Assembly: GCA_027622715.1 (NCBI GenBank)
Contig: JAQBYN010000001.1
Coordinates: forward strand, 124,001-188,000
Length of the DNA: 64,000 nucleotides
Source of the DNA: Pseudomonadota bacterium
Lineage (GTDB): Bacteria; Pseudomonadota; Alphaproteobacteria; SHVP01
Direction: 5' to 3'
Each line of letters opens with the position of its first letter. The first letter of the stretch is position 1. The position numbers and the translations under genes are program-made. The notes under the pieces are model-generated. The model did no database searches. It worked only from the letters and a program-made list of their open reading frames with translations, and was not told the origin of the DNA. Positions 37,717-50,517 of the stretch are shown piece after piece.

Positions 37717-38625
37717 TCAACTCTCGACGGGCCTAACCGCCGTGCCATCTTGCTTGATCCGCGTTTCGCGAAACGCAATGTAGAGCGTCGACCCGAAGAT
37801 CACCGCTCCGCCCAGCCAAGTCCACAGGTCGGGAATTTCGGCAAACACCAGAAAACCCAAGACCGACGCCCAAATCAGCCGCAGAAAGTCATACGGCAAG
37901 ACGGCCGTCGCATCGGATTCCTTGAACGCTTGCGCCAGCGCAGAATGACCGATCCCGCCAAAAATGCCGATCAATGCCAGATACAGGTACATCTCGCCCG
38001 TGGGCCATTGCCAAAAGAACAACGCCGGGATTAACGAGAGCGGCGCCATGAACAAGCCCATGTAGACGGTGATCGTCAGGCTCGATTCGGTCCGCGACAG
38101 AATCTTGATGATGATCATCGAGCCCGCCCAGATACACGACGACGCAACTACCAGAAGGGCGCCGGTGTTCACCACCGCAAAGCCCGGGCGAATAACGATC
38201 CAGGCGCCGATAAAACCCGCGATCAGCGCGCCCCAGCGCCGCCACCCGGCCCGCTCGCGCAGAATGAATATGGCAAGGACCGTCGTGAACAACGGCGCCA
38301 TAAAGCTTAAAGCGATGTTTTGTGCCAGCGGCGCTAACGTAAGCGCGGTAAAGAAGAACAACATGCCGGTTGTCTGCAGCGACCCACGCAGCGCATGCAA
38401 CTTCAGTTGCGAGGTCCGCAGAACGCCAAAGCCATACCGAAACAGTAGTGGCGAGACAACGAGAAGTCCGAAAAAATTCCGGAAGAACGCCACCTCAAAA
38501 GGATGAAGATCTTCGGCAGCAAACCGTACGGTGACCTGCATCCCGGTAAAGAGCAGGGTTGATACCAACATAAAAAAAACGCCTCGTAGGCGCGTTGGAA
38601 CCGCGTTGAACTGACCGAATGCCAT
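37717..38625 (-). CDS. EamA/DMT-family transporter
   Basis: 302 residues, ten predicted helices in two EamA repeats. The start is RLRGVFFMLVSTLLFTGMQV, then HPFEVAFFRNFFGLLVVSPL, and the second repeat reads YLALIGIFGGIGHSALAQAF and ATAVLPYDFLRLIWASVLGFLVF. Members export metabolites or drugs; the substrate is not readable. It converges with the cupin gene and diverges from the cyclase. Confidence 0.85.
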   Translation of the reverse strand: MAFGQFNAVPTRLRGVFFMLVSTLLFTGMQVTVRFAAEDLHPFEVAFFRNFFGLLVVSPLLFRYGFGVLRTSQLKLHALRGSLQTTGMLFFFTALTLAPLAQNIALSFMAPLFTTVLAIFILRERAGWRRWGALIAGFIGAWIVIRPGFAVVNTGALLVVASSCIWAGSMIIIKILSRTESSLTITVYMGLFMAPLSLIPALFFWQWPTGEMYLYLALIGIFGGIGHSALAQAFKESDATAVLPYDFLRLIWASVLGFLVFAEIPDLWTWLGGAVIFGSTLYIAFRETRIKQDGTAVRPVES

Positions 38626-38748
38626 GGGCGCTCAACCTATCACAGCGCACCGGTCGGACAATCGCCGAAAAAGTTGGTGCATCGCCGCGACGTCTCCGAG
38701 AACACTGCGCCCAGACGGACTATGCTTGACCCGAAGGAGCAAAAAAAA

Positions 38749-40107
38749 ATGAAACCATTCAGGGCAGCACGATTGCCTATGCCAGCGCCGGTGGCCGCGG
38801 CCCTACGTGCCGAAGAAATTGCCGGGCAACGGCTCTTCGGTTATGCGCGCTTTGCGGTGTTGGTCGGATTAACCATCGTCACACTGGGCCTGCAACCGGC
38901 ACCGTACGGCTACTACAACCTCGGGCCGATCGTCCTAATCGCGCTGGTTGGCGCGGTTCCGTTTTTCCTCCCGCACGCGGTGAAGCGACGCGGATTGCCC
39001 TATCTGTTCTTCGCCCTCGACGTGGTGCTGGTCACGCTCTGGATGTGGGTTTTTAACCCGATCATATGGGATGGCTTGGTACCGGAGATGCTTTTTGCCT
39101 GGGGTGTGGTCACCTTCTATTTCCTCCTCATCGTTCTCGCTGCCCTTTCGTATGATCCAAAACTACCGTTGTGGACCGGGGCGCTCAGCGCCGTCGCTAT
39201 TCTCGTTGTGTATGGCCTGGTTGCATCGCGCGATGGCGCCGTCGACAGCATGTTGTTGATGCTCAACGCGGGCAATCTGCCACCCGATTACGATCAGATT
39301 TCGCCGGCGGAACGCTTCGCCTTTGCGGCGATCCCACGCATTCTCGAAGCGGCCGTATTGCTTCTCGCCGCGTGTGTCGTCGCCGTGGCGGTTCAACGTT
39401 CCCGACGCCTCGTCGTTCGAGAGGCCGAAGCGGCACGCGGCCGCGCCAATCTCTCCCGGTATTTCTCTCCCGCGATTGTCGACGAACTGCTCACGACCGA
39501 CGCGCCCCTGGGCACGGTGCGGACACAGCCGGTAGCGGTGCTTTTTGCCGACATCGTTGGTTTCACCCGAATCGCGGAAACGCAAAGCGCCCAGGATGTG
39601 ATCGACCTGTTGCGTGGGTTTCACCAGCGCATGGAGAACGCCGTGTTCGCCCATGGCGGCACGCTCGATAAGTTCTTAGGCGACGGCCTGATGGCGACTT
39701 TCGGCACGCCGCGAACCGGCCTAAAGGACACGATCAACGCCCTCGCCTGCCTGCGCGCCATGCTTGCCGCCATCGACCTGTGGAATGCTGAGCGCGCCGC
39801 CAGCGGTGCCAGCACCCCACTGCGCCTTTCCATCGGGTTACACTTTGGCATGGTCGTCCTGGGCGACATCGGGTCCGAACGTCAGCTCGAATTCGCAGTC
39901 GTCGGTGATGTCGTCAACGTCGCAAGCCGGCTTGAGGAATTGACCCGAACGATGAACGTGCGAGCGGTTGTCAGCGAGGCATTTGTGCAGGCCCTGCACG
40001 AACAGGCTGGTTCCGACGCAAACGCGCTCTTGGCCGGCGTCGCAGTCCAGCCACCGCAGATTCTTCGTGGCCGTAGCGAAGCCGTGGCGGTTCGCACCCT
40101 TGCCTAA
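38749..40107 (+). CDS. Membrane-bound class III adenylate/guanylate cyclase
   Basis: 452 residues from ATG 38749, with an AAGGAG site about ten bases upstream; the frame extends back to 38674. About five to six helices occupy residues 25-225. The cyclase domain (about 250-420) has both metal Asp (FADIVGFTRI and LDKFLGDGLMATF), the Lys, and the transition-state Asn and Arg in VVGDVVNVASRLE. All catalytic residues are present, so it should be active, making cAMP. It contrasts with two degenerate cyclase domains elsewhere in the window. Confidence 0.87.
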   Translation: MKPFRAARLPMPAPVAAALRAEEIAGQRLFGYARFAVLVGLTIVTLGLQPAPYGYYNLGPIVLIALVGAVPFFLPHAVKRRGLPYLFFALDVVLVTLWMWVFNPIIWDGLVPEMLFAWGVVTFYFLLIVLAALSYDPKLPLWTGALSAVAILVVYGLVASRDGAVDSMLLMLNAGNLPPDYDQISPAERFAFAAIPRILEAAVLLLAACVVAVAVQRSRRLVVREAEAARGRANLSRYFSPAIVDELLTTDAPLGTVRTQPVAVLFADIVGFTRIAETQSAQDVIDLLRGFHQRMENAVFAHGGTLDKFLGDGLMATFGTPRTGLKDTINALACLRAMLAAIDLWNAERAASGASTPLRLSIGLHFGMVVLGDIGSERQLEFAVVGDVVNVASRLEELTRTMNVRAVVSEAFVQALHEQAGSDANALLAGVAVQPPQILRGRSEAVAVRTLA

Positions 40108-40569: not shown

Positions 40570-41409
40570 CTAATCCGCGTCGAGAAATTCCCGCAAAATC
40601 GGCGCGACCGCCTGGAAACGGACCAACAGCATCTCGCGCCCCCACTCCGGCAAGTCCACCATCCGGCCATTGCGAATAAAGGGCCGCGCACGCGCCGTCG
40701 GCGCCCACAAGTCGTCCTGCGCGTGCAAGATCAACACCGGTTGGCTGACGCGTGGCAGGGCGTCACGATGTTGGTAGCCGAACGCCGCATGATGCCCGTG
40801 CCACACGTGGGCGCCCGCCCGCAGCGACTCGGCAACCTCTAGCAAAACTGCGTCCAACGGTGTGTCGGCACCGCGCTGGTGCATGGCCCACGCCCAACGC
40901 GCCAAGATGTGCTCGCCGTCCCCGCCAAAGCGCTCGACCGCCACGTCCTGCTGCTGCAACGCGTCAAGTTCGGCGGCCGCGTAAACCGGCGCGGCATTTA
41001 GAACGACGCGGCGCACCCGCTCGGGGTTTTGCAACGCACATTCGACGGCAATCTTGGCGCCGGTATGATCACCAAAAACATCGACCTGGGGCAACGAAAG
41101 CGCGTCGATCAGGTCGCCCATTGCGCCCGCATAATCGGCAATCGACGGTGCATGCGATGGCGGGTCGGACGCACCGAACCCCGGGGTGTCGACGGCGATT
41201 GCAACGCGGTCGCGGCCCATTTCACCGATTAGGCCTTCGTAACAGCGCCCAGATGTCGGCGTCTGGTGAAACACCAGCAGCGGCGGAAACCGCGGCGCGC
41301 TCGGCGCCGCGATCCGGTAGTGCAGTTGGCCAAAGCGGCACGGCGCATAGGCGCGTCGCAGCCCGGGTGGGACGGCCCACACGTCGATGCTGTTTTTGCT
41401 CGCCGCCAT
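40570..41409 (-). CDS. Alpha/beta-hydrolase with G-D-H-T-G elbow (single domain)
   Basis: 279 residues, one alpha/beta-hydrolase domain. It begins with YAPCRFGQLHYRIA, then FHQTPTSGRCYEGL (about 48-60, replacing the usual HG oxyanion motif) and AVDTPGFGASDPP (about 72-84). The nucleophile elbow is G113-D-His115-T-G117. So the Ser of G-x-S-x-G is replaced by His. A cap domain has WHGHHAAFGY. The C-terminus lacks the usual catalytic His motif. Last gene of a three-gene minus-strand operon, seven bases after the next one; a closely similar pattern appears in all five domains there. Activity unknown. Confidence 0.85.
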   Translation of the reverse strand: MAASKNSIDVWAVPPGLRRAYAPCRFGQLHYRIAAPSAPRFPPLLVFHQTPTSGRCYEGLIGEMGRDRVAIAVDTPGFGASDPPSHAPSIADYAGAMGDLIDALSLPQVDVFGDHTGAKIAVECALQNPERVRRVVLNAAPVYAAAELDALQQQDVAVERFGGDGEHILARWAWAMHQRGADTPLDAVLLEVAESLRAGAHVWHGHHAAFGYQHRDALPRVSQPVLILHAQDDLWAPTARARPFIRNGRMVDLPEWGREMLLVRFQAVAPILREFLDAD

Positions 41410-41416
41410 GGATGGC

Positions 41417-43123
41417 CTAGGCGTCGTAAAAGCTGCGCAAGTATCCGGCTATTTCGTCGGCCTGTGTCTCCATGAAGCCATAACTGTATTGCAGCAAGTC
41501 GATGAGCTGCGCGTTCTTCAGCAGCGGCTTGGCCCGCAACGTGTTCTCTTCCAACCCATCCTTGGGCCGGAAAACCAGCATGGGCTGGTCTATCTTGGGC
41601 AGGACCGGGTCCATGTCGTAGGAAAACACGGCGTGGTGGCCCCAATGGCCGAACGGTCCGCCCCTCAGGGTCTCGACGAAATTGCGCTCCACATCGCGCA
41701 TACCCATGGCGGGACCGTAGATCCGAACCATCGACTCCCAACGCTTTTTCAAATGGGCCGCGTCGGCCGTCGGCGCTTCGTACACCGAATGCGCAACCTT
41801 TTCCGCCCGTTCATCGGCATTGAAATACGGCACCGTATTCAACGCGACTTTTCTGATCAACGCCGGATAGCGCGCCGCCAAATCGATCGCAATCACGGCC
41901 CCGGTGTGGTCACCCATAAGGTCGATCGGACCGGCACCGGCAACCGCTTTGGTCACGTCGGTCATGATATCGGCAAGGTCGGCAATTGTAGGCAATTTCT
42001 GCGGCGCTTCGGATTCGCCAAACCCCGGAATGTCTGCAGCGAAGGCCAAACGATCTTTGCCGAGGCGCACCAACAACGGCTCGAAGTTGCGGCTCGAAAC
42101 CGGGCTCATGTGCAAACAAAGCACGGGGACCTTTGTCGTCCGACCGGGGTCGACGACACGCACATGAACCTGCTTCGCGCGGCTGTCGATAAACCGTCGC
42201 CGCACCGGCTTCGCGACAAGTGCTGGTGCGGCGGGCGCTTGGCGCGGCGCGGCACGGGGTTGCGTGTCGTCCGCCGGACCGTCGAGAAAGTCGCGGAGGA
42301 TCTTCGCCAGCTCGGTCGAATGCTGCGAAATCGCGCCCATCCCAAACTGCCGCAATTCCAAAATGGTGCCGTTCTTGAGATAGGGCTTGCTCGCCATTGT
42401 CGCGTCCCACAGCCCGTCGTCGGGGCACAGAACGAGAATCGGCTGACTGACATGCGGCAGATTGTCCGAATGTTTGACAGCAAACGCGGCGTTGTGGCCG
42501 TACCAAGCGAGATCCAACCCCCGCAAGCTTTCGCAAAAATCGCGGTTATACAGTTCCATCGGCGCGTCGGGCTTGTACGACCCTTTGGTACCTTTCCACC
42601 GATGAAGAATGTGGCTGCCGTCTTGTGGCACGATGTCCTTGGGCCGCTCGGCTTCAAGATGGGTCATCATCTCGGCCATCTTTTCGGGCGAGTAGACCGG
42701 GCAAGCGTTGAATACCAGGCGGCGTACCAATTGCGGTCGCTGCAACGCGAGCTCTACGCCGACTTTTGCACCGGTGTGGTCGCCAAAAACGTCCACCTCG
42801 TCGAGCTTCAGCGCATCCATAAAACTGGCCACCGCAGCGGCATAATCGGCAATCGTCGGCGGCGCGGGCGGTGCATCGGAATCGCCAAAGCCCGGCGTGT
42901 CGACGGCGATCGCGATACGATCGCGCCCCATCTCGGAGACCAGCCCCTCAAAAGGTCGGCCTGAAGACGGGCTCTGATGAAAAAAGATAATCGGCGGGTG
43001 TGCCGCAGCGGCGCCATCCGTTGGCACCGCGATGCGATAATGCATCTGGCCATAGCGACCGTCGACATAGGCGCGTTTGACGTTGTCAGGTTTGCGCCAG
43101 TAAAGCGCGGCGTCTCCGATCAT
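41417..43123 (-). CDS. Tandem alpha/beta-hydrolase with two G-D-H-T-G elbows
   Basis: 568 residues made of two paralogous hydrolase domains (about 10-282 and 310-568) joined by a Pro/Ala-rich linker (QPRAAPRQAPAAPALVAKP). Domain one: FHQSPSSGRPFEGL, AVDTPGFGDSD, elbow G114-D-His116-T-G118, and QHSTEL near the end. Domain two: LHMSPVSSRNFEPL, AADIPGFGESE, elbow G404-D-His406-T-G408. The cap motifs AWYGHNAAFAV and HWGHHAVFSY match each other. I do not know an enzyme with this fused form. The substrate is unknown; both elbows carry His at the nucleophile position. Confidence 0.85.
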   Translation of the reverse strand: MIGDAALYWRKPDNVKRAYVDGRYGQMHYRIAVPTDGAAAAHPPIIFFHQSPSSGRPFEGLVSEMGRDRIAIAVDTPGFGDSDAPPAPPTIADYAAAVASFMDALKLDEVDVFGDHTGAKVGVELALQRPQLVRRLVFNACPVYSPEKMAEMMTHLEAERPKDIVPQDGSHILHRWKGTKGSYKPDAPMELYNRDFCESLRGLDLAWYGHNAAFAVKHSDNLPHVSQPILVLCPDDGLWDATMASKPYLKNGTILELRQFGMGAISQHSTELAKILRDFLDGPADDTQPRAAPRQAPAAPALVAKPVRRRFIDSRAKQVHVRVVDPGRTTKVPVLCLHMSPVSSRNFEPLLVRLGKDRLAFAADIPGFGESEAPQKLPTIADLADIMTDVTKAVAGAGPIDLMGDHTGAVIAIDLAARYPALIRKVALNTVPYFNADERAEKVAHSVYEAPTADAAHLKKRWESMVRIYGPAMGMRDVERNFVETLRGGPFGHWGHHAVFSYDMDPVLPKIDQPMLVFRPKDGLEENTLRAKPLLKNAQLIDLLQYSYGFMETQADEIAGYLRSFYDA

Positions 43124-43298
43124 CCGACTCCCTCCCCTGTATTGTTGGCCCCGCTTGGGGCTCAGGGAGAATAGGCGGCGGAAACCGCGGGGGCGAGTCC
43201 TCTCGGACGCACTGCCCGGGGCGGCACTATCGCAAGATTACCGGGAGTCTAACGCGCCCGGTCCCGCGACGGAAATCACGTTCTCTGTCCCCAAACGT

Positions 43299-45035
43299 CT
43301 AGCTGCGCAAAAACCCATCAATATCGCGGGCGACCTCAGCGACCCGGTCTTCCAGCATCGAATTGCCAAGTCCGGCATATTCCTTGTAGCGGCCATTGCG
43401 CAACAGAGCCGCGCCCCGCCGGCTCGGTTCAATCAAACTGTCCTCATCCGAACACATCAACAGTATCTCTCGTTCGATATGCGGCAGAACCTCGCCCAGT
43501 AGATACATGTTGGCGGCACGTGGCCCCCACCACATGCACGGCCCGGCACGAATCGTCTCGAAGAACCGAAACGCAATTTGATCCGATGTCAGCTTGCCGC
43601 GGTTCAAATTTTGGTAGCGTTCCCACAGCGCGGCGTAATGGCTGCCATCTTCCTGAACGTCAATCGTACCCATCTTGCTTTGCCAGCTCTGCTGTTCCTC
43701 GGCCGAGTAAACGCCGGCGGTGTTCATAACGATCCGGCGCACCAGATCGGGCCGCTGATGGGCCAGTTCGATCGCAACCTTGGTGCCGGTGTGATCGCCC
43801 AACAAGTCGACGGTCTCGAATGTCATCCCGTCGATCATTGAGGCCATCGCCCGCGCATAACCCGGCACGTCCAGGCGTTGCGCCGGTTTGTAAGATTCCC
43901 CATAGCCGGGCGTGTCTGGTGCAAACACCTGGCGGTCGGCTGATAAGGCGGCCAGCAGCGCCTCGAAGTAGTGGCCCGAGCGCGGGCTCATGTGAAAACA
44001 AAACAGCGGCGGCGCCGTAGCGCCCAATCTGCCGGCCGCCCGCAAATGAATTTGGCCGGCCGACGAATTGGCGAACAGACGGTTGATGCCGAGCCCGTCG
44101 TCGGTCCCCGAGACAACAACCGGCGGCGCAGCCATTGCCGGCTCATCGTCGAAAAATTTGCGCAGCATCGCGGTGAGCGTCTCGGCGTGCTGCGATATTG
44201 CGCCAACCCGCCAGTCGGCCCGATGAACCAGCTCCCCGTCCGGGACTAGTTTCGCCGCCCGGTGTGTTTCTTCCCACAGTCCGTCATTTGCCGAGACCAT
44301 CAGTATCGGTTGTTTGACCTGTGGCAGCGCGTCGGCAAACGAATAGCCATAAGCCGCCTGATAACCCCACCAGGCTTTGTCGCGCGTGCGCAAGGATTCG
44401 GCGAAGTCTCGGTCGACTAAAGCGAGCGGCGCATCGCCCGCATAGTGCGTCCTTAGGCTGTGCCATTTCTTCGCGAGAAATGCCCCATCCTCGGGCAGCG
44501 GCACGCCAGCCTCGCGAATTTTTTCCGCTAACAAATCGCGCTGGGCGTTGCGCTGATCCGCGCTGTACACCGGGGCGCCGTATAGAACCAGTTTGCGCAC
44601 CAGCTGTGGCTGCTGGCGGGCGATCTCAACCGCAATTTTCGCCCCGGTATGGTCACCAACAATATCCACCCGGCCGATTCCAAGTCCGGCGATTACCGTC
44701 GCAATCGCCTCGGCATACTCAGCGATACCCACCGGTTCGTCGGGCCTGTCTGAGTCGCCGAAACCTGGTGTGTCCGGTGCAATCGCCACGCGAGTCTGGC
44801 CAAGGCGCGCGAGAACGCCCTCCCATGCCCGGCCTGACGACGGCGTTTGGTGGAGTAGAACAACTGCTGGGCGCTCCGGCACCTCGGGCTGCGCATAGCG
44901 AAAATGGAAATGCCCGAACGGCCCCGCGACATAGGCCCGGCGCACGCCTTTGGGTGCACGCCAATAGCCAAGCAACGCCTCAAGCGTGGCTGCGTCGTCG
45001 GGCCAACCGGTTTTCTCAGAGGATCCGACGTTCAT
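43299..45035 (-). CDS. Tandem alpha/beta-hydrolase with two G-D-H-T-G elbows (paralogue)
   Basis: 578 residues from ATG 45035, which has GGGGAG six bases upstream; the frame extends to a GTG at 45056. It has the same two-domain build as its neighbour. Domain one: LHQTPSSGRAWEGV, PDTPGFGDSDRP, elbow G127-D-His129-T-G131, cap AWWGYQAAYGY, QHAETL. Domain two: FHMSPRSGHYFEAL, PDTPGYGESYKP, elbow G413-D-His415-T-G417, cap MWWGPRAANMY. It is first in the operon; the 175-base gap to the next gene holds a GC hairpin (around 43148-43161) and no gene. It diverges from psuK over about 100 bases. Confidence 0.85.
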   Translation of the reverse strand: MNVGSSEKTGWPDDAATLEALLGYWRAPKGVRRAYVAGPFGHFHFRYAQPEVPERPAVVLLHQTPSSGRAWEGVLARLGQTRVAIAPDTPGFGDSDRPDEPVGIAEYAEAIATVIAGLGIGRVDIVGDHTGAKIAVEIARQQPQLVRKLVLYGAPVYSADQRNAQRDLLAEKIREAGVPLPEDGAFLAKKWHSLRTHYAGDAPLALVDRDFAESLRTRDKAWWGYQAAYGYSFADALPQVKQPILMVSANDGLWEETHRAAKLVPDGELVHRADWRVGAISQHAETLTAMLRKFFDDEPAMAAPPVVVSGTDDGLGINRLFANSSAGQIHLRAAGRLGATAPPLFCFHMSPRSGHYFEALLAALSADRQVFAPDTPGYGESYKPAQRLDVPGYARAMASMIDGMTFETVDLLGDHTGTKVAIELAHQRPDLVRRIVMNTAGVYSAEEQQSWQSKMGTIDVQEDGSHYAALWERYQNLNRGKLTSDQIAFRFFETIRAGPCMWWGPRAANMYLLGEVLPHIEREILLMCSDEDSLIEPSRRGAALLRNGRYKEYAGLGNSMLEDRVAEVARDIDGFLRS

Positions 45036-45134
45036 CTGGTTCTCCCCGGGCGTCACCCCAACAGACGACGGGCTTGCCTCACGCGCGCCCCTACTCTAGT
45101 CACGAACAACGCAAACCAACAGTTCGGATCCGCC

Positions 45135-46061
45135 ATGCCTTCGATTGCCTGTTTCGGCGCGGTAAACCTCGATCGCACCGCACGCTGCCTCGGCGAACTG
45201 GTATTGCGCTCCTCCAATCCGGTGGCGGTCCGCCAAGCCGCTGGCGGGGTCGCGCGCAACGTTGCCACCAATCTCGGACGGCTCGGCCAACATGTCGGGC
45301 TCGCATCCGTCGTCGGCGCCGATGCGGGCGGCGAGGAATTGATCCGCGCTCTCGAAGCGGATGGCATCGACACATCAGGGACAATGCGCCGCGACGACGA
45401 AGCAACGGCAAGCTACACCGCGGTACTTGATCGCGACGGTGAACTTCTGATCGGGCTTGCCGACATGGCCATTTACGACGGCTTCGCGCCCGGGTCCCTG
45501 CGCGCGTCTGACGCGCCCGCCCAAGAGGACGCATGGTTCGTCGATGCCAACCTGCCGGACGCCTGCATCGACCGGCTGACCGCGATTGCATCGGGGCACA
45601 CCCTACTAACCGCCAGCACCGTCTCAACGCCAAAGGCCGTCCGACTAGCGCCTTACCTAGCGCGGCTCGATGTGCTCTTTGCCAATCGTGCCGAAGCAGC
45701 GGTCCTCAGCGGTGTGAATATCCAAACCGACGACGACGCGCTAAAGGCAGCCGATTGGTTACGCGACGCTGGAATCGGCACGGTGTTCATTACATTGGGC
45801 CCGCGCGGCGCGGTCGCCGCCAACGACCAAGCGCGCATCGCATTGCCGGCAATCCCAGGCGCCGCGCGCGACGTCGTTGGCGCGGGCGACGCGTTTGCCG
45901 CCGGCGCCCTCACAGCGCTGTTGGAAAAGAAGTTGCTGCGCGACGCCCTGATTTCGGGCTTGGCAACGGCGAGCATCACCGTCGAGGTCGACGGCCCAAC
46001 GGATCCGCATCTCAGCCCCGCGCGCGTTGCCGATCGCGCGCAACACAAACTCACGGCCTAG
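45135..46061 (+). CDS. psuK: PfkB-family sugar kinase, probable pseudouridine kinase
   Basis: 308 residues from ATG 45135. PfkB signatures: GGVARNVATNLGRLGQHVGLASVVG near 36-60 and GAARDVVGAGDAFAAGALTAL near 245-265, with the catalytic Asp in GAGDAF. As psuG follows two bases after its stop, the likely reaction is phosphorylation of pseudouridine to its 5'-phosphate. Other ribokinase-type substrates are possible. It diverges from the tandem hydrolase operon. Confidence 0.87.
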   Translation: MPSIACFGAVNLDRTARCLGELVLRSSNPVAVRQAAGGVARNVATNLGRLGQHVGLASVVGADAGGEELIRALEADGIDTSGTMRRDDEATASYTAVLDRDGELLIGLADMAIYDGFAPGSLRASDAPAQEDAWFVDANLPDACIDRLTAIASGHTLLTASTVSTPKAVRLAPYLARLDVLFANRAEAAVLSGVNIQTDDDALKAADWLRDAGIGTVFITLGPRGAVAANDQARIALPAIPGAARDVVGAGDAFAAGALTALLEKKLLRDALISGLATASITVEVDGPTDPHLSPARVADRAQHKLTA

Positions 46062-46062
46062 G

Positions 46063-46974
46063 ATGACGCTGCCCCTGGTATTCGCTCCCGCCGTAAAACA
46101 GGCCATCGACACTGGCGCGCCCGTCGTCGCCCTCGAGTCGACCGTCATCGCGCATGGCCTGCCCGCGCCCCGCAATCTCGAACTCGCGCTGGCGTGCGAA
46201 AGCGCGATTCGCGCAAGGGGTGCGACGCCCGCCACCATCGCGGTAATCGACGGCGAAATCGTCGTCGGGTGCACCGAAGACCAAATTCATCACCTCGCCA
46301 CTGCGAGCGACGTCGCCAAAGTCAGCCGACGCGACATCACCGCCGTGATCGCTCGACGAGGAACGGGCGCGACGACAGTGGCCGGGACGCTGCTGTGCGC
46401 CGCCGCCGCGGGTATCAAGATCATGGCGACCGGTGGCATCGGCGGCGTCCACCGCGGCGGTGAATCATCGCTCGACATTTCGGCCGATCTATCCGAATTG
46501 GCCCGCTCGCCGGTTGCCGTCGTTTGTTCCGGTGCGAAATCAATCTTGGATCTACAGCGGACGCTGGAAGTTCTCGAAACCAACGGTGTGCCGGTTGCCG
46601 GATACCGCACCGCGGAATTCCCAGCCTTCTACGCGCAGACCAGTGGGCTCGCCCTGGAGATACGGCTCGACAGCGCCCGCGAGGCGGCGGACCTTATCCG
46701 AGTGCATCGCACTCTGCCCGGCGCCGGCGCCGTCGTTATCGCCAATCCCGTGCCGGCGTCAGCGGCTATTCCTGCAACCACCGTCGATCGTTGGATCGAG
46801 ACGGCGTTGGCGACGGCCAACCAGCGCGGCGTCACCGGCAAGGATGTCACACCATTCCTGCTCAAGGCGCTGGTTGAACTCAGCGGCGGGGCGACGTTGA
46901 ACACCAACATTGCGCTCCTGGAAAACAACGCCGCGGTTGCCGCCTATATCGCGGTTGCCCTCGACGAGGCCTGA
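46063..46974 (+). CDS. psuG: Pseudouridine-5'-phosphate glycosidase
   Basis: 303 residues from ATG 46063. PsuG signatures: VVALESTVIAHGLPAPRN near 20-37, TIAVIDGEIVVGC near 66-78, IMATGGIGGVHRGGE with the metal and phosphate sites near 126-140, and SSLDISADL, then TSGLALEIRLDS. It cleaves the C-C glycosidic bond to give uracil and ribose-5-phosphate. It is linked to psuK by two bases and its stop overlaps the next start (TGATG). Confidence 0.95.
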   Translation: MTLPLVFAPAVKQAIDTGAPVVALESTVIAHGLPAPRNLELALACESAIRARGATPATIAVIDGEIVVGCTEDQIHHLATASDVAKVSRRDITAVIARRGTGATTVAGTLLCAAAAGIKIMATGGIGGVHRGGESSLDISADLSELARSPVAVVCSGAKSILDLQRTLEVLETNGVPVAGYRTAEFPAFYAQTSGLALEIRLDSAREAADLIRVHRTLPGAGAVVIANPVPASAAIPATTVDRWIETALATANQRGVTGKDVTPFLLKALVELSGGATLNTNIALLENNAAVAAYIAVALDEA

Positions 46975-47750
46975 TGCCCCGTTTCTCCGCCAACATCTCG
47001 ACGCTCTTCACCGAGCGTGAACCCTATGACCGGATCACCGCCGCCGCCGACTGCGGGTTCACCGCCTTTGAGGTCCAGTTCCCTTACGAACTGCCGATCG
47101 ACGGTTGGGTCGCCGCCAAGGAGAAAGCGGGTCTCGACGTTTCCGTCATCAACCTGCCGGTCGGCGATATGACACGGGGCGGACCGGGCCTCGCATCGGT
47201 ACCTGGGCGCGAAGGACAGTTTCGCGCTGCCGTCGCCGAAGCCCGTCTCTATGTCGAAGCCCTGCAGCCGCGTTGCGTCAATCTGCTAGCGGGTATCGCG
47301 CCGGAAAAACTTGGCTTGGCGGCGTGCCGGGCGACCTTGGTCGAAAACACACGCTACGCCGCCGAAGCATTCGCGCCGCTTGGCGTTCGTGTTGTCATCG
47401 AAGCAATCAACACGCGTGACCGTCCCGGTTTTTTCATCGCCACGTCGGCGGATGCGATCAGTCTGATCGACGAGGTCGGCCATCCCAACCTCGCGCTTCA
47501 GCACGACCTATACCATATGCAGATCATGGAGGGTGCTTTGATCGAAACACTCACCCGCCTCATCCACCGCGTCGCACATATCCAGTTTGCCGACGTCCCC
47601 GGTCGGCAAGAACCTGGGACTGGACAGATTGACTTCGCGACGGTCTTCGCAGCCATCGACGCGTTGGGCTACGACGGTTGGGTGGCGGCAGAATACATTC
47701 CCTCCACCCGTACCGAAGACACATTGCATTGGCTACCGACCAAGGAGTGA
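46974..47750 (+). CDS. hyi: Hydroxypyruvate isomerase (Hyi/OtnI-like)
   Basis: 258 residues of the xylose-isomerase-like TIM-barrel family. Catalytic and metal residues are visible in VVIEAINTRDRPGFFI (Glu), LQHDLYHMQIMEG, HIQFADVPGRQEPGTGQIDF and GWVAAEYIPS (Glu). It interconverts hydroxypyruvate and tartronate semialdehyde, or a four-carbon analogue in OtnI. It overlaps psuG by one base and precedes the SDR gene, so it belongs to the same operon. Its link with pseudouridine breakdown is unclear. Confidence 0.88.
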   Translation: MPRFSANISTLFTEREPYDRITAAADCGFTAFEVQFPYELPIDGWVAAKEKAGLDVSVINLPVGDMTRGGPGLASVPGREGQFRAAVAEARLYVEALQPRCVNLLAGIAPEKLGLAACRATLVENTRYAAEAFAPLGVRVVIEAINTRDRPGFFIATSADAISLIDEVGHPNLALQHDLYHMQIMEGALIETLTRLIHRVAHIQFADVPGRQEPGTGQIDFATVFAAIDALGYDGWVAAEYIPSTRTEDTLHWLPTKE

Positions 47751-48513: not shown

Positions 48514-50517
48514 CTAGCGCACGCCCGCTTTGCGCAGCGCCTCAACAAAGCGATTGAGGTCGGCACGATTGCGATAAGGGGTTCGATCGCCGGCAATAAC
48601 CGAGGGCATCACCGACCGAACCGCACTCTGTCCCAGTTCGAATTCAGCCCTAGCAGGATCCCCTGCCTCGGCATAGCTCGCCGCAAGATAGTAGCGATTT
48701 GCCAACCACGTCGGGTTGCTCTCGACGCCCTCGCGGAATGCGACGATCGCGCCCTCATAGTCTTCCATCACGAATCGCGCGTGACCAAGGGCAAACAGAT
48801 ACCAGAACGGGGGCCGCGGATTGCGACGCAGCGCCTGCTCCACGGCTTCCTCGCCGCGCTCGGCGGAACCCGCCCACGTCAATATTTTGCTCAACGTCGC
48901 GTATCCGTCCGCGTAATTCGGATTGACCGCGATTGCTTTTTCAGCCTCTTCCAATGCGCGGTCGTAATCACCCCGGGCCAAGTATGAAGCGCCCAAGACG
49001 CTATGGGCGGCAGGCAAATCTTCGTCGAGCGCGACCGCCCGCTGCGCCGCGGCAAAGGCGCTGTCAGTTGGCGCGCGGTCGCTCCATTGCTGAGCGCTCA
49101 AATGCGCGTTGGCAAGCCCCTCATATGCCCGTGCGAATGAACGGTCGGTATCGACGGCCGCTTGAAATAATCGAATCGCTTCATCTGTCGCGGCGCGGTT
49201 CTGTTGGCGCATCGCGTGATGCGCCCGGAGGAGTAGATCGAATGCCTCAGGGTCGGCCGACTCTTGGCGCTTGAGACGATTAACGTCGGCGGCTGTGAGC
49301 GCCGAGCCCACTGCAGATGCCGTCAGCTGGGCGACGCGTCGACCGGCGCTGGCAACTTGGTCCGGACCGAGATCAAACGTGCGCAACAGGAGCGGTGCGA
49401 CAGCGCCGTTTTCCATAAGTTGGATTGACAGCCGAACATGATCGCCGCTGCGCACGACCTTGCCCAGCAGCACAAAGCGAACACCCAGCGCTTGTGCTGC
49501 TTCGGGTACCGAATCGGGGTTTGATCCGAAGGCGAGCGCCGAATGGGGCGAGGCAATGAACAGCCCGCGGCTCCTCGACAAGGCAATGGCTACTTCTTCG
49601 GCTAGGCCGGTCGCGACATAGTCCTGCGTTCGGTCGGACGACGCGTTGGCGAACGGCAAAACCGCAATCGATGGTTCGCTCGGCAACGTCATTGGAACCG
49701 AGAACGCCCCGGCGTCTGCCGCCTCCTGGGTGGACTCAGCCCCGGCCTGGCCCTCACCAACATCACCATCGCCGTCGCCTTCTGCAGAACCGCGTCCGAA
49801 ACCCTTTTTCAGTCCGCCGCCAGCCGAGCCCTCGAACGGCGAACCGCCGCCGGCCTCCTGGTCACCGCCCGATAACGGGCCCTGCTGGATGAAAAACACG
49901 ACGAGGACCACTGAAACGATGAGCCCTAGGGCTATCCCGGCTATGCCACGACGGCCTAACCCGACCGCGAGACGCCGGCCCGCACCACCCGATGCGTAGG
50001 CGTCGATATTCTCGACCCCCCGCAACACCGAAACGTCCTTGCCGCCCACCGACTGTTCGCCGAGGTCTTCCCATTCCAGGTCCACTCGTTCAACCACCTG
50101 CTTGTGGGTCGCACCGGTGACGGCCGTGGCCCCACCTGCGGAATAGTTCCGCAGGGCTTGCGCGGCGCTCACGGCATCACCCTTTACGTCACGGCCGGTG
50201 CCACTGATACCGCCGACATGGACCGCGCCGCGGAACCACATCTTCTGCGCTTCTTTAAGTTCTTCGTTATATCCGGCAACGTCTTCGTGAATCGCGTTGA
50301 CGGCGTGAATCGCCGCGACCGGGCTCGGAAACTCAGCTAGGAAGGTGTCCCGTTCCGCTGAAAATAGCGTGCCCCGATTCTCCGCCACCGAATCGCGCAC
50401 GATCCCGAGAAAATTGCGCAAGTGAGACAGCGTCGCTTTCTTGTTCGACGCCTCAAAGGACGCAAAATCCTCGATATCGAGCGCAAGGATAGCTGCCAGT
50501 CGCTGCCGTTCGGCCAC
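48514..50517 (-). CDS. Degenerate cyclase domain-TM-TPR protein
   Basis: 667 residues. The N-terminal class III cyclase-like domain (about 1-170) keeps both metal Asp (LALDIEDFASF and ERDTFLAEF). It loses the Lys (LFSAERD), and VSAAQALRN replaces the usual V-N-x-A-A-R-L, so Asn and Arg are gone. A transmembrane helix (about 190-213, GIALGLIVSVVLVVFFI) and a Gly/Glu-rich linker (about 215-270) follow. Then comes a TolB/FlgO-like domain (SIAVLPFANASSDRTQDYVATG) and at least five TPR repeats (about 430-640). It is likely a membrane scaffold or sensor rather than a cyclase. The 236 bases upstream carry a lone DnaA-box-like TGTGGATAA (50602-50610) and no gene. Confidence 0.83.
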   Translation of the reverse strand: MAERQRLAAILALDIEDFASFEASNKKATLSHLRNFLGIVRDSVAENRGTLFSAERDTFLAEFPSPVAAIHAVNAIHEDVAGYNEELKEAQKMWFRGAVHVGGISGTGRDVKGDAVSAAQALRNYSAGGATAVTGATHKQVVERVDLEWEDLGEQSVGGKDVSVLRGVENIDAYASGGAGRRLAVGLGRRGIAGIALGLIVSVVLVVFFIQQGPLSGGDQEAGGGSPFEGSAGGGLKKGFGRGSAEGDGDGDVGEGQAGAESTQEAADAGAFSVPMTLPSEPSIAVLPFANASSDRTQDYVATGLAEEVAIALSRSRGLFIASPHSALAFGSNPDSVPEAAQALGVRFVLLGKVVRSGDHVRLSIQLMENGAVAPLLLRTFDLGPDQVASAGRRVAQLTASAVGSALTAADVNRLKRQESADPEAFDLLLRAHHAMRQQNRAATDEAIRLFQAAVDTDRSFARAYEGLANAHLSAQQWSDRAPTDSAFAAAQRAVALDEDLPAAHSVLGASYLARGDYDRALEEAEKAIAVNPNYADGYATLSKILTWAGSAERGEEAVEQALRRNPRPPFWYLFALGHARFVMEDYEGAIVAFREGVESNPTWLANRYYLAASYAEAGDPARAEFELGQSAVRSVMPSVIAGDRTPYRNRADLNRFVEALRKAGVR

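Follow-up and report, generated by a model that had tools for sequence, protein, structure and literature searches.

The α/β-hydrolase fold, one of the best studied, defines one of the largest enzyme superfamilies, and the residue at its nucleophile elbow, usually, though not universally, Ser, Cys or Asp, is used to predict chemistry. Several described groups on this fold can be compared with the proteins considered here, i.e., the perhydrolase group of non-heme haloperoxidases and aryl esterases (1zoi, 1a88, 1va4, 4dgq), the 3-oxoadipate enol-lactonase PcaD (2xua; profiles TIGR02427 and NF051488), the haloalkane dehalogenases and epoxide hydrolases, and the His-Asp-dyad enzymes, which include HOD-type dioxygenases and a carboxy-lyase-like cluster. 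In the dyad enzymes, the elbow nucleophile has been described as dispensable (PMC10548524) or missing (PMC11878206). A 2024 survey and classification of the superfamily gives the nucleophile as Ser, Asp, Cys or missing, with no His listed.

The window, that is, the whole 64,000-nucleotide stretch of DNA analysed here, contains three adjacent genes encoding five domains of this fold, all with the elbow motif G-D-H-T-G (Table 1). Perfect matches to GGNGAYCAYACNGG occur five times in the window, every one inside these three genes; with up to one mismatch, seven matches were found against 0.88 expected, and none of 100 shuffles reached seven, which rules out a chance motif. The DNA of the five copies varies at third codon positions only (GGT/GGC, GAT/GAC, CAT/CAC), indicating conservation at the level of the protein motif. 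A sequence-only reading of this DNA had placed five such domains in three adjacent genes, and its residue numbers for the five histidines are all correct on the translations. The other common elements that it listed were found as well: the H-(Q/M)-(T/S)-P loop lies at residue 48 of the 279-aa protein, 49 and 338 of the 568-aa protein and 62 and 348 of the 578-aa protein, and W-x-G-x-x-A, from a cap motif described as W-x-G-x-x-A-A-like, is present in all five domains. No C-terminal catalytic His is common to them, as had been stated, the aligned strand-8 residues being R, M, Y, V and N. Proteins with an H-T-G elbow and an H-x-[ST]-P-x-S loop, which all five window domains possess, are referred to below as the HTG family.

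Table 1. HTG genes, elbow motifs, neighbouring genes and other loci mentioned in the text (window coordinates unless a locus is named).
Feature	Position	Strand	Remarks
Single-domain HTG protein, 279 aa	40570..41409	-	Elbow His115; Pfam Abhydrolase_1 E 2e-11; AF2 pLDDT 95.1, pTM 0.94
Two-domain HTG protein, 568 aa	41417..43123	-	Elbows His116 and His406; AF2 pLDDT 94.9, pTM 0.93
Two-domain HTG protein, 578 aa from ATG at 45035	43299..45035	-	Elbows His129 and His415; full ORF 43299-45056, 585 aa
GDHTG elbow, 279-aa protein (His115)	41060..41073	-	Motif scan and AF2 model
GDHTG elbow, 568-aa protein, domain 1 (His116)	42771..42784	-	Motif scan and AF2 model
GDHTG elbow, 568-aa protein, domain 2 (His406)	41901..41914	-	Motif scan and AF2 model
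GDHTG elbow, 578-aa protein, domain 1 (His129)	44644..44657	-	Motif scan
GDHTG elbow, 578-aa protein, domain 2 (His415)	43786..43799	-	Motif scan
Hydroxypyruvate/2-oxo-tetronate isomerase-like gene, single copy	46974..47750	+	Conserved GDHTG neighbour, 8/10 genomes of the taxonomic family
PfkB-type sugar kinase (pseudouridine-kinase/ribokinase-like)	44904..46061	+	Neighbour kept in two same-genus genomes
Pseudouridine-5'-phosphate glycosidase-like gene	46027..46974	+	Pfam Indigoidine_A PF04227, E 2e-120
EamA/DMT-type transporter	37717..38625	-	Also near GDHTG in G002, G005, G008, G009; five isomerase loci in all
TPR protein	48514-50517		Near GDHTG genes in five loci
Putative adenylate/guanylate cyclase	38674-40107		
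Adjacent single-domain HTG pair, example	L145 7983-8810 and 8810-9631		
Distant two-domain relatives with degenerate domain 2	L028:9454-12881, L041:1683-5110, L037:5928-7637		
G-H-H-G-G branch	L137:9001-9780, L139:9081-9860 and similar		Adjoins GYHTG genes
Family of about 210-230 aa without a Pfam match	L151:8856-9485, L050:10359-11039		Adjoins HTG genes in about a dozen loci
GHHTG gene followed by DUF1838 gene	L179:12887-13891		Novosphingobium sp. P6W

AlphaFold2 modelling of the 568-aa protein (with 32 sequences as input) and of the 279-aa protein (with 75 domains) gave models with a mean pLDDT of 95, and DSSP assigned to them strand 110–115, His116 and helix 117–128 in domain 1 of the former, strand 400–405, His406 and helix 407–418 in its domain 2, and strand 109–114, His115 and helix 116–127 in the latter. 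In the modelled window domains, the predicted place of the elbow His is the nucleophile elbow, the turn between strand 5 and a helix. Together with Pfam Abhydrolase_1 matches above the cut-off, the models assign the window proteins to the α/β-hydrolase fold, with its eight-stranded core, and with His at the nucleophile position, as had been claimed; the usual Ser, Cys or Asp is absent, and His stands there in all five window domains and in 75 of 75 close relatives.

VIA Z values to solved members of the fold range from 27 to 30. The nearest solved structures are the Ser esterases/haloperoxidases 1zoi, 1a88, 4dgq and 1a8q (VIA Z about 30, 2.1–2.3 Å over about 250 residues), with which the perhydrolase-group likeness extends to length, and the value for the enol-lactonase 2xua is 29. 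Haloalkane dehalogenases and epoxide hydrolases share the fold, a non-Ser elbow nucleophile and many sequence matches with the HTG proteins, but their nucleophile is Asp, where the window has His, and their VIA Z is lower, about 27. In a profile alignment to 1a88, the His column of the family falls on the Ser of G-H-S-T-G, the Thr-Gly being the same in both, and the HGML that follows strand 8 in the GYHTG branch of the family falls on the HGML of 1a88. The alignment of the elbow against solved hydrolases had been proposed as a check on the reading, and the two models and the profile alignments to 1a88, 2xua and others exclude an elbow located elsewhere or an alignment artefact. Unlike the perhydrolase group, to which identity is 16–21%, every HTG domain has His instead of Ser, and the Gly of the oxyanion loop is mostly replaced; the window members also have no strand-8 His, and a Ser-Asp-His triad was not found.

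Profile searches with the window domains in Pfam and NCBIfam placed no curated family above the cut-off, apart from general Pfam hydrolase and fold models. Among curated NCBIfam profiles, all three window proteins score best against NF051488 (PcaDC), and a carboxymuconolactone-decarboxylase-family gene lies near some HTG loci, a further likeness to PcaD; unlike PcaD, however, the window proteins reach 50–110 bits against cut-offs of 256–390 (49.9–89.8 against 255.85 bits for TIGR02427) and have no catalytic Ser. A PDB search with the HTG family profile at E 1e-20 gave no match, and the full-text literature contained no description of a His elbow of this type, a mention in subscription papers or in ESTHER/CATH being possible. 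The earlier statement that no described family has this elbow is thus borne out for Pfam, NCBIfam, the PDB and the literature searched, and the HTG family, with the same fold and an unrecorded residue at the defining position, is apparently undescribed.

Conservation was assessed on the 75-domain alignment, which is the unselected test, the other H-T-G groups having been chosen by that motif. In the numbering of the 279-aa protein, which is used below, His115, Thr116 and Gly117 of the elbow are invariant across the 75 domains, as are His48, Arg68, Asp74, Ala208 and Asp232. A clade with invariant G-D-H-T-G had been named as what would support the reading; H-T-G is indeed constant in 75 of 75 domains, but the general form is G-x-H-T-G. 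In the GDHTG kind, the cap residues His167, Trp172, Glu194 and Arg197 are strongly kept, which goes beyond the needs of a decayed scaffold. The dN/dS ratio between orthologues is 0.06–0.11, with synonymous sites near saturation; this purifying selection and the invariance of the elbow rule out decay or pseudogenes, in agreement with the view that the conservation reflects selection.

A comparison of the active sites with a small set of Ser/Asp enzymes (14 rows) indicates that His48 and Asp74 are common to both and about equally conserved, while the Gly that follows His48 throughout the Ser/Asp set (100%) is replaced in the majority of HTG domains by Met, Gln, Leu or Ala. GYHTG-like members have Asp in the strand-7 acid column in 89% of cases and the strand-8 His in 80%; this branch therefore retains the usual Asp and His, and only the nucleophile has been exchanged there. 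The strand-8 His is gone in 14 of 15 GDHTG members against 9 of 40 other domains, but this coupling (Fisher's test 2e-6, kinship ignored) is suggestive only and not significant once kinship is counted, since it reflects only 2–3 independent changes. At the acid column, Gly is frequent among GDHTG members, but 87% of them have Asp one residue earlier, a position that is invariant in the 75-domain alignment, and the kind adds Asp114 before the elbow His. In the window, the canonical-acid column is Gly or Ser in four of the five domains, and the alignment may be shifted by one position at Asp232/Asp233. Judging from the alignments, the extra losses, of the strand-8 His and mostly of the usual Asp column, are specific to the window's GDHTG kind; the absence of a common C-terminal His, noted in the sequence-only reading, applies to this kind, but not to the GYHTG part of the family.

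The acid column with Gly or Ser in four window domains means that the active site may have been dismantled, as in a binding protein. A non-enzymatic role, where the pocket would have turned into a ligand-binding or sensing/scaffold site, like that of other proteins of this fold whose triad does not work, and the His would aid binding, would also fit the change of all three triad columns in most window domains, the replacement of the HG Gly of the oxyanion loop in most HTG domains and the degenerate second elbow of distant double-domain members; such a role nevertheless seems doubtful, given that the H-T-G elbow is invariant over very divergent sequences, with polar pocket and cap residues kept, that the GYHTG branch retains its Asp and His, and that most of the neighbouring genes encode enzymes of catabolism. 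From their conserved pocket residues and these gene neighbourhoods, the HTG proteins are predicted to be enzymes.

Three other roles of the elbow His as part of an enzyme were weighed. Since it occupies the position from which Ser, Cys or Asp would attack, beside an oxyanion hole, it could itself be a covalent nucleophile forming an acyl- or other imidazole intermediate, activated in the GYHTG branch by the Asp-His pair, so that the family would still be hydrolase- or transferase-like; the window's kind, however, is without such an activating pair, and we know of no precedent for a covalent His nucleophile on the α/β-hydrolase fold. The 2024 survey gives only Ser, Asp, Cys or none, and covalent catalysis by the His is unlikely. 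Alternatively, the nucleophile might be the neighbouring Thr116, which is invariant, or a Ser of the H-x-S-P-x-S loop, where Ser50 and Ser53 are mostly kept, the His serving as a local base. On this fold, the oxyanion hole uses a backbone NH of the residue that follows the nucleophile, and ordinary Ser enzymes can have Thr there too (GHSTG of 1a88); the conservation of Thr116 therefore has a simpler reason, and a Thr or Ser nucleophile is highly improbable. Several highly conserved His and Asp residues in the loops round the pocket might suggest a metal site in which the elbow His is joined by a pocket His or Asp, e.g., Asp232 or cap His167, with metal-dependent chemistry, but the conservation of His167 in the family as a whole is only partial, and His48 and Asp74 need not be metal ligands, since they are about equally conserved in Ser/Asp enzymes; a metal site thus has very little probability.

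By sequence comparison, the window is one corner of a large, widespread bacterial G-x-H-T-G family. The loci examined in the source genome comprise 22 ORFs with a total of 28 H-T-G elbow domains, and close relatives occur in ten of ten genomes of its taxonomic family of uncultured Alphaproteobacteria. In a class-wide sample of 385 genomes, 33, belonging to about twenty families, gave a match with an E value of at most 1e-20, and most of the loci examined had H-T-G. A scan of named genomes yielded 80 loci in Rhodospirillaceae bins, Sphingomonas, Novosphingobium, Glacieibacterium, gammaproteobacterial bins, Chloroflexi and Nocardioides, the counts from which (102 GYHTG and others) describe spread and not frequency, since one of the two search patterns contained the elbow. 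Members are also borne by Novosphingobium plasmids, pSA1 included, one of them annotated simply as alpha/beta hydrolase.

HTG domains are encoded as two-domain fusions (in the source's taxonomic family and some Gammaproteobacteria), as adjacent single-domain pairs or as lone genes. Distant two-domain relatives have H-T-G in domain 1 only, with a degenerate elbow (N, Q, G or W) in domain 2, and are possible active-plus-pseudo pairs. In a quick ML tree of 138 domains, built with the elbow columns left out, 13 of 14 Ser/Asp rows group together, apart from nearly all His rows; the tree is consistent with a single gain of His and later losses, several changes being needed, which is the simplest reading and not a proved one. 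A further branch, with G-H-H-G-G in place of G-x-H-T-G, adjoins GYHTG genes.

The kinase, glycosidase-like and isomerase-like genes stand in a row at 44904-47750 of the window, divergent from the HTG genes; the locus is also flanked by genes for a TPR protein and a putative cyclase (Table 1). The isomerase-like gene is present in nine of the ten genomes of the taxonomic family, in no more than one copy per genome, and is adjacent to a GDHTG two-domain gene, or no more than about 2 kb away from one, in the source genome (G000, the window) and in G001, G002, G004, G005, G006, G008 and G009. The isomerase-like proteins of these eight loci share 43–84% identity. As exceptions, G007 has a GDHTG gene without the isomerase, and G003 has the isomerase with no GDHTG gene close to it; none of the other HTG loci examined contained the isomerase-like gene. 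The isomerase-like protein of the window falls under the NCBIfam equivalog cut-offs (295.9 against 353.45 and 272.5 against 325 bits) and appears to be a relative of hydroxypyruvate/2-oxo-tetronate isomerase that may or may not use the same substrate. In the wider family, the neighbours include FAD_binding_2 oxidoreductases, acyl-CoA-dehydrogenase-fold flavoproteins, tannase/feruloyl esterase, amidohydrolase, luciferase-like monooxygenase, CMD and carbon-nitrogen-hydrolase genes, which fits catabolism. Other recurrent or singular neighbours are a protein family without a Pfam match and, in Novosphingobium sp. P6W, a DUF1838 gene (Table 1).

Taken together, a tentative preference is given to the HTG proteins being small-molecule catabolic enzymes that use the elbow His mainly as a general base/acid and form no acyl-Ser intermediate. 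The elbow Ser would have changed to His, most simply once, in a perhydrolase- or enol-lactonase-like ancestor (GxSTG to GxHTG). A loop Asp (Asp232 of the 279-aa protein, possibly together with Asp114) would hold the His close to the oxyanion hole, and the His would activate water or take a proton from the substrate, the step possibly being a lactone-opening, C-C-cleaving, isomerising or decarboxylating one. GYHTG members would have retained the ancestral Asp-His pair alongside the new His, while in the window's GDHTG kind, which has no strand-8 His, the role of base would pass to the elbow His. Paired domains may cooperate, either fused into a pseudodimer or made separately from neighbouring genes, and the GDHTG proteins would probably belong to one route with the adjacent isomerase-like protein. 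The proposed chemistry resembles that of the His-Asp-dyad enzymes in relying on a base in the same pocket and no covalent nucleophile; the HOD-type enzymes, unlike the window proteins, have Ser or Ala at the elbow and use as the base the strand-8 His, which the window proteins have lost. The broader proposition, that this is a widespread enzyme family whose nucleophile was replaced by His, acting as catalytic base or nucleophile, with the original catalytic His then lost in one part, so that the catalytic centre was relocated, is about evenly balanced.

A large His-elbow clade, which in one lineage numbers tens of copies per genome, has probably been misread as Ser hydrolases, and serine-reactive activity probes would miss its proteins. 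The HTG family offers a natural test of the rebuilding of a catalytic triad, and the cultured carriers Sphingomonas, Novosphingobium and Nocardioides put it within experimental reach.
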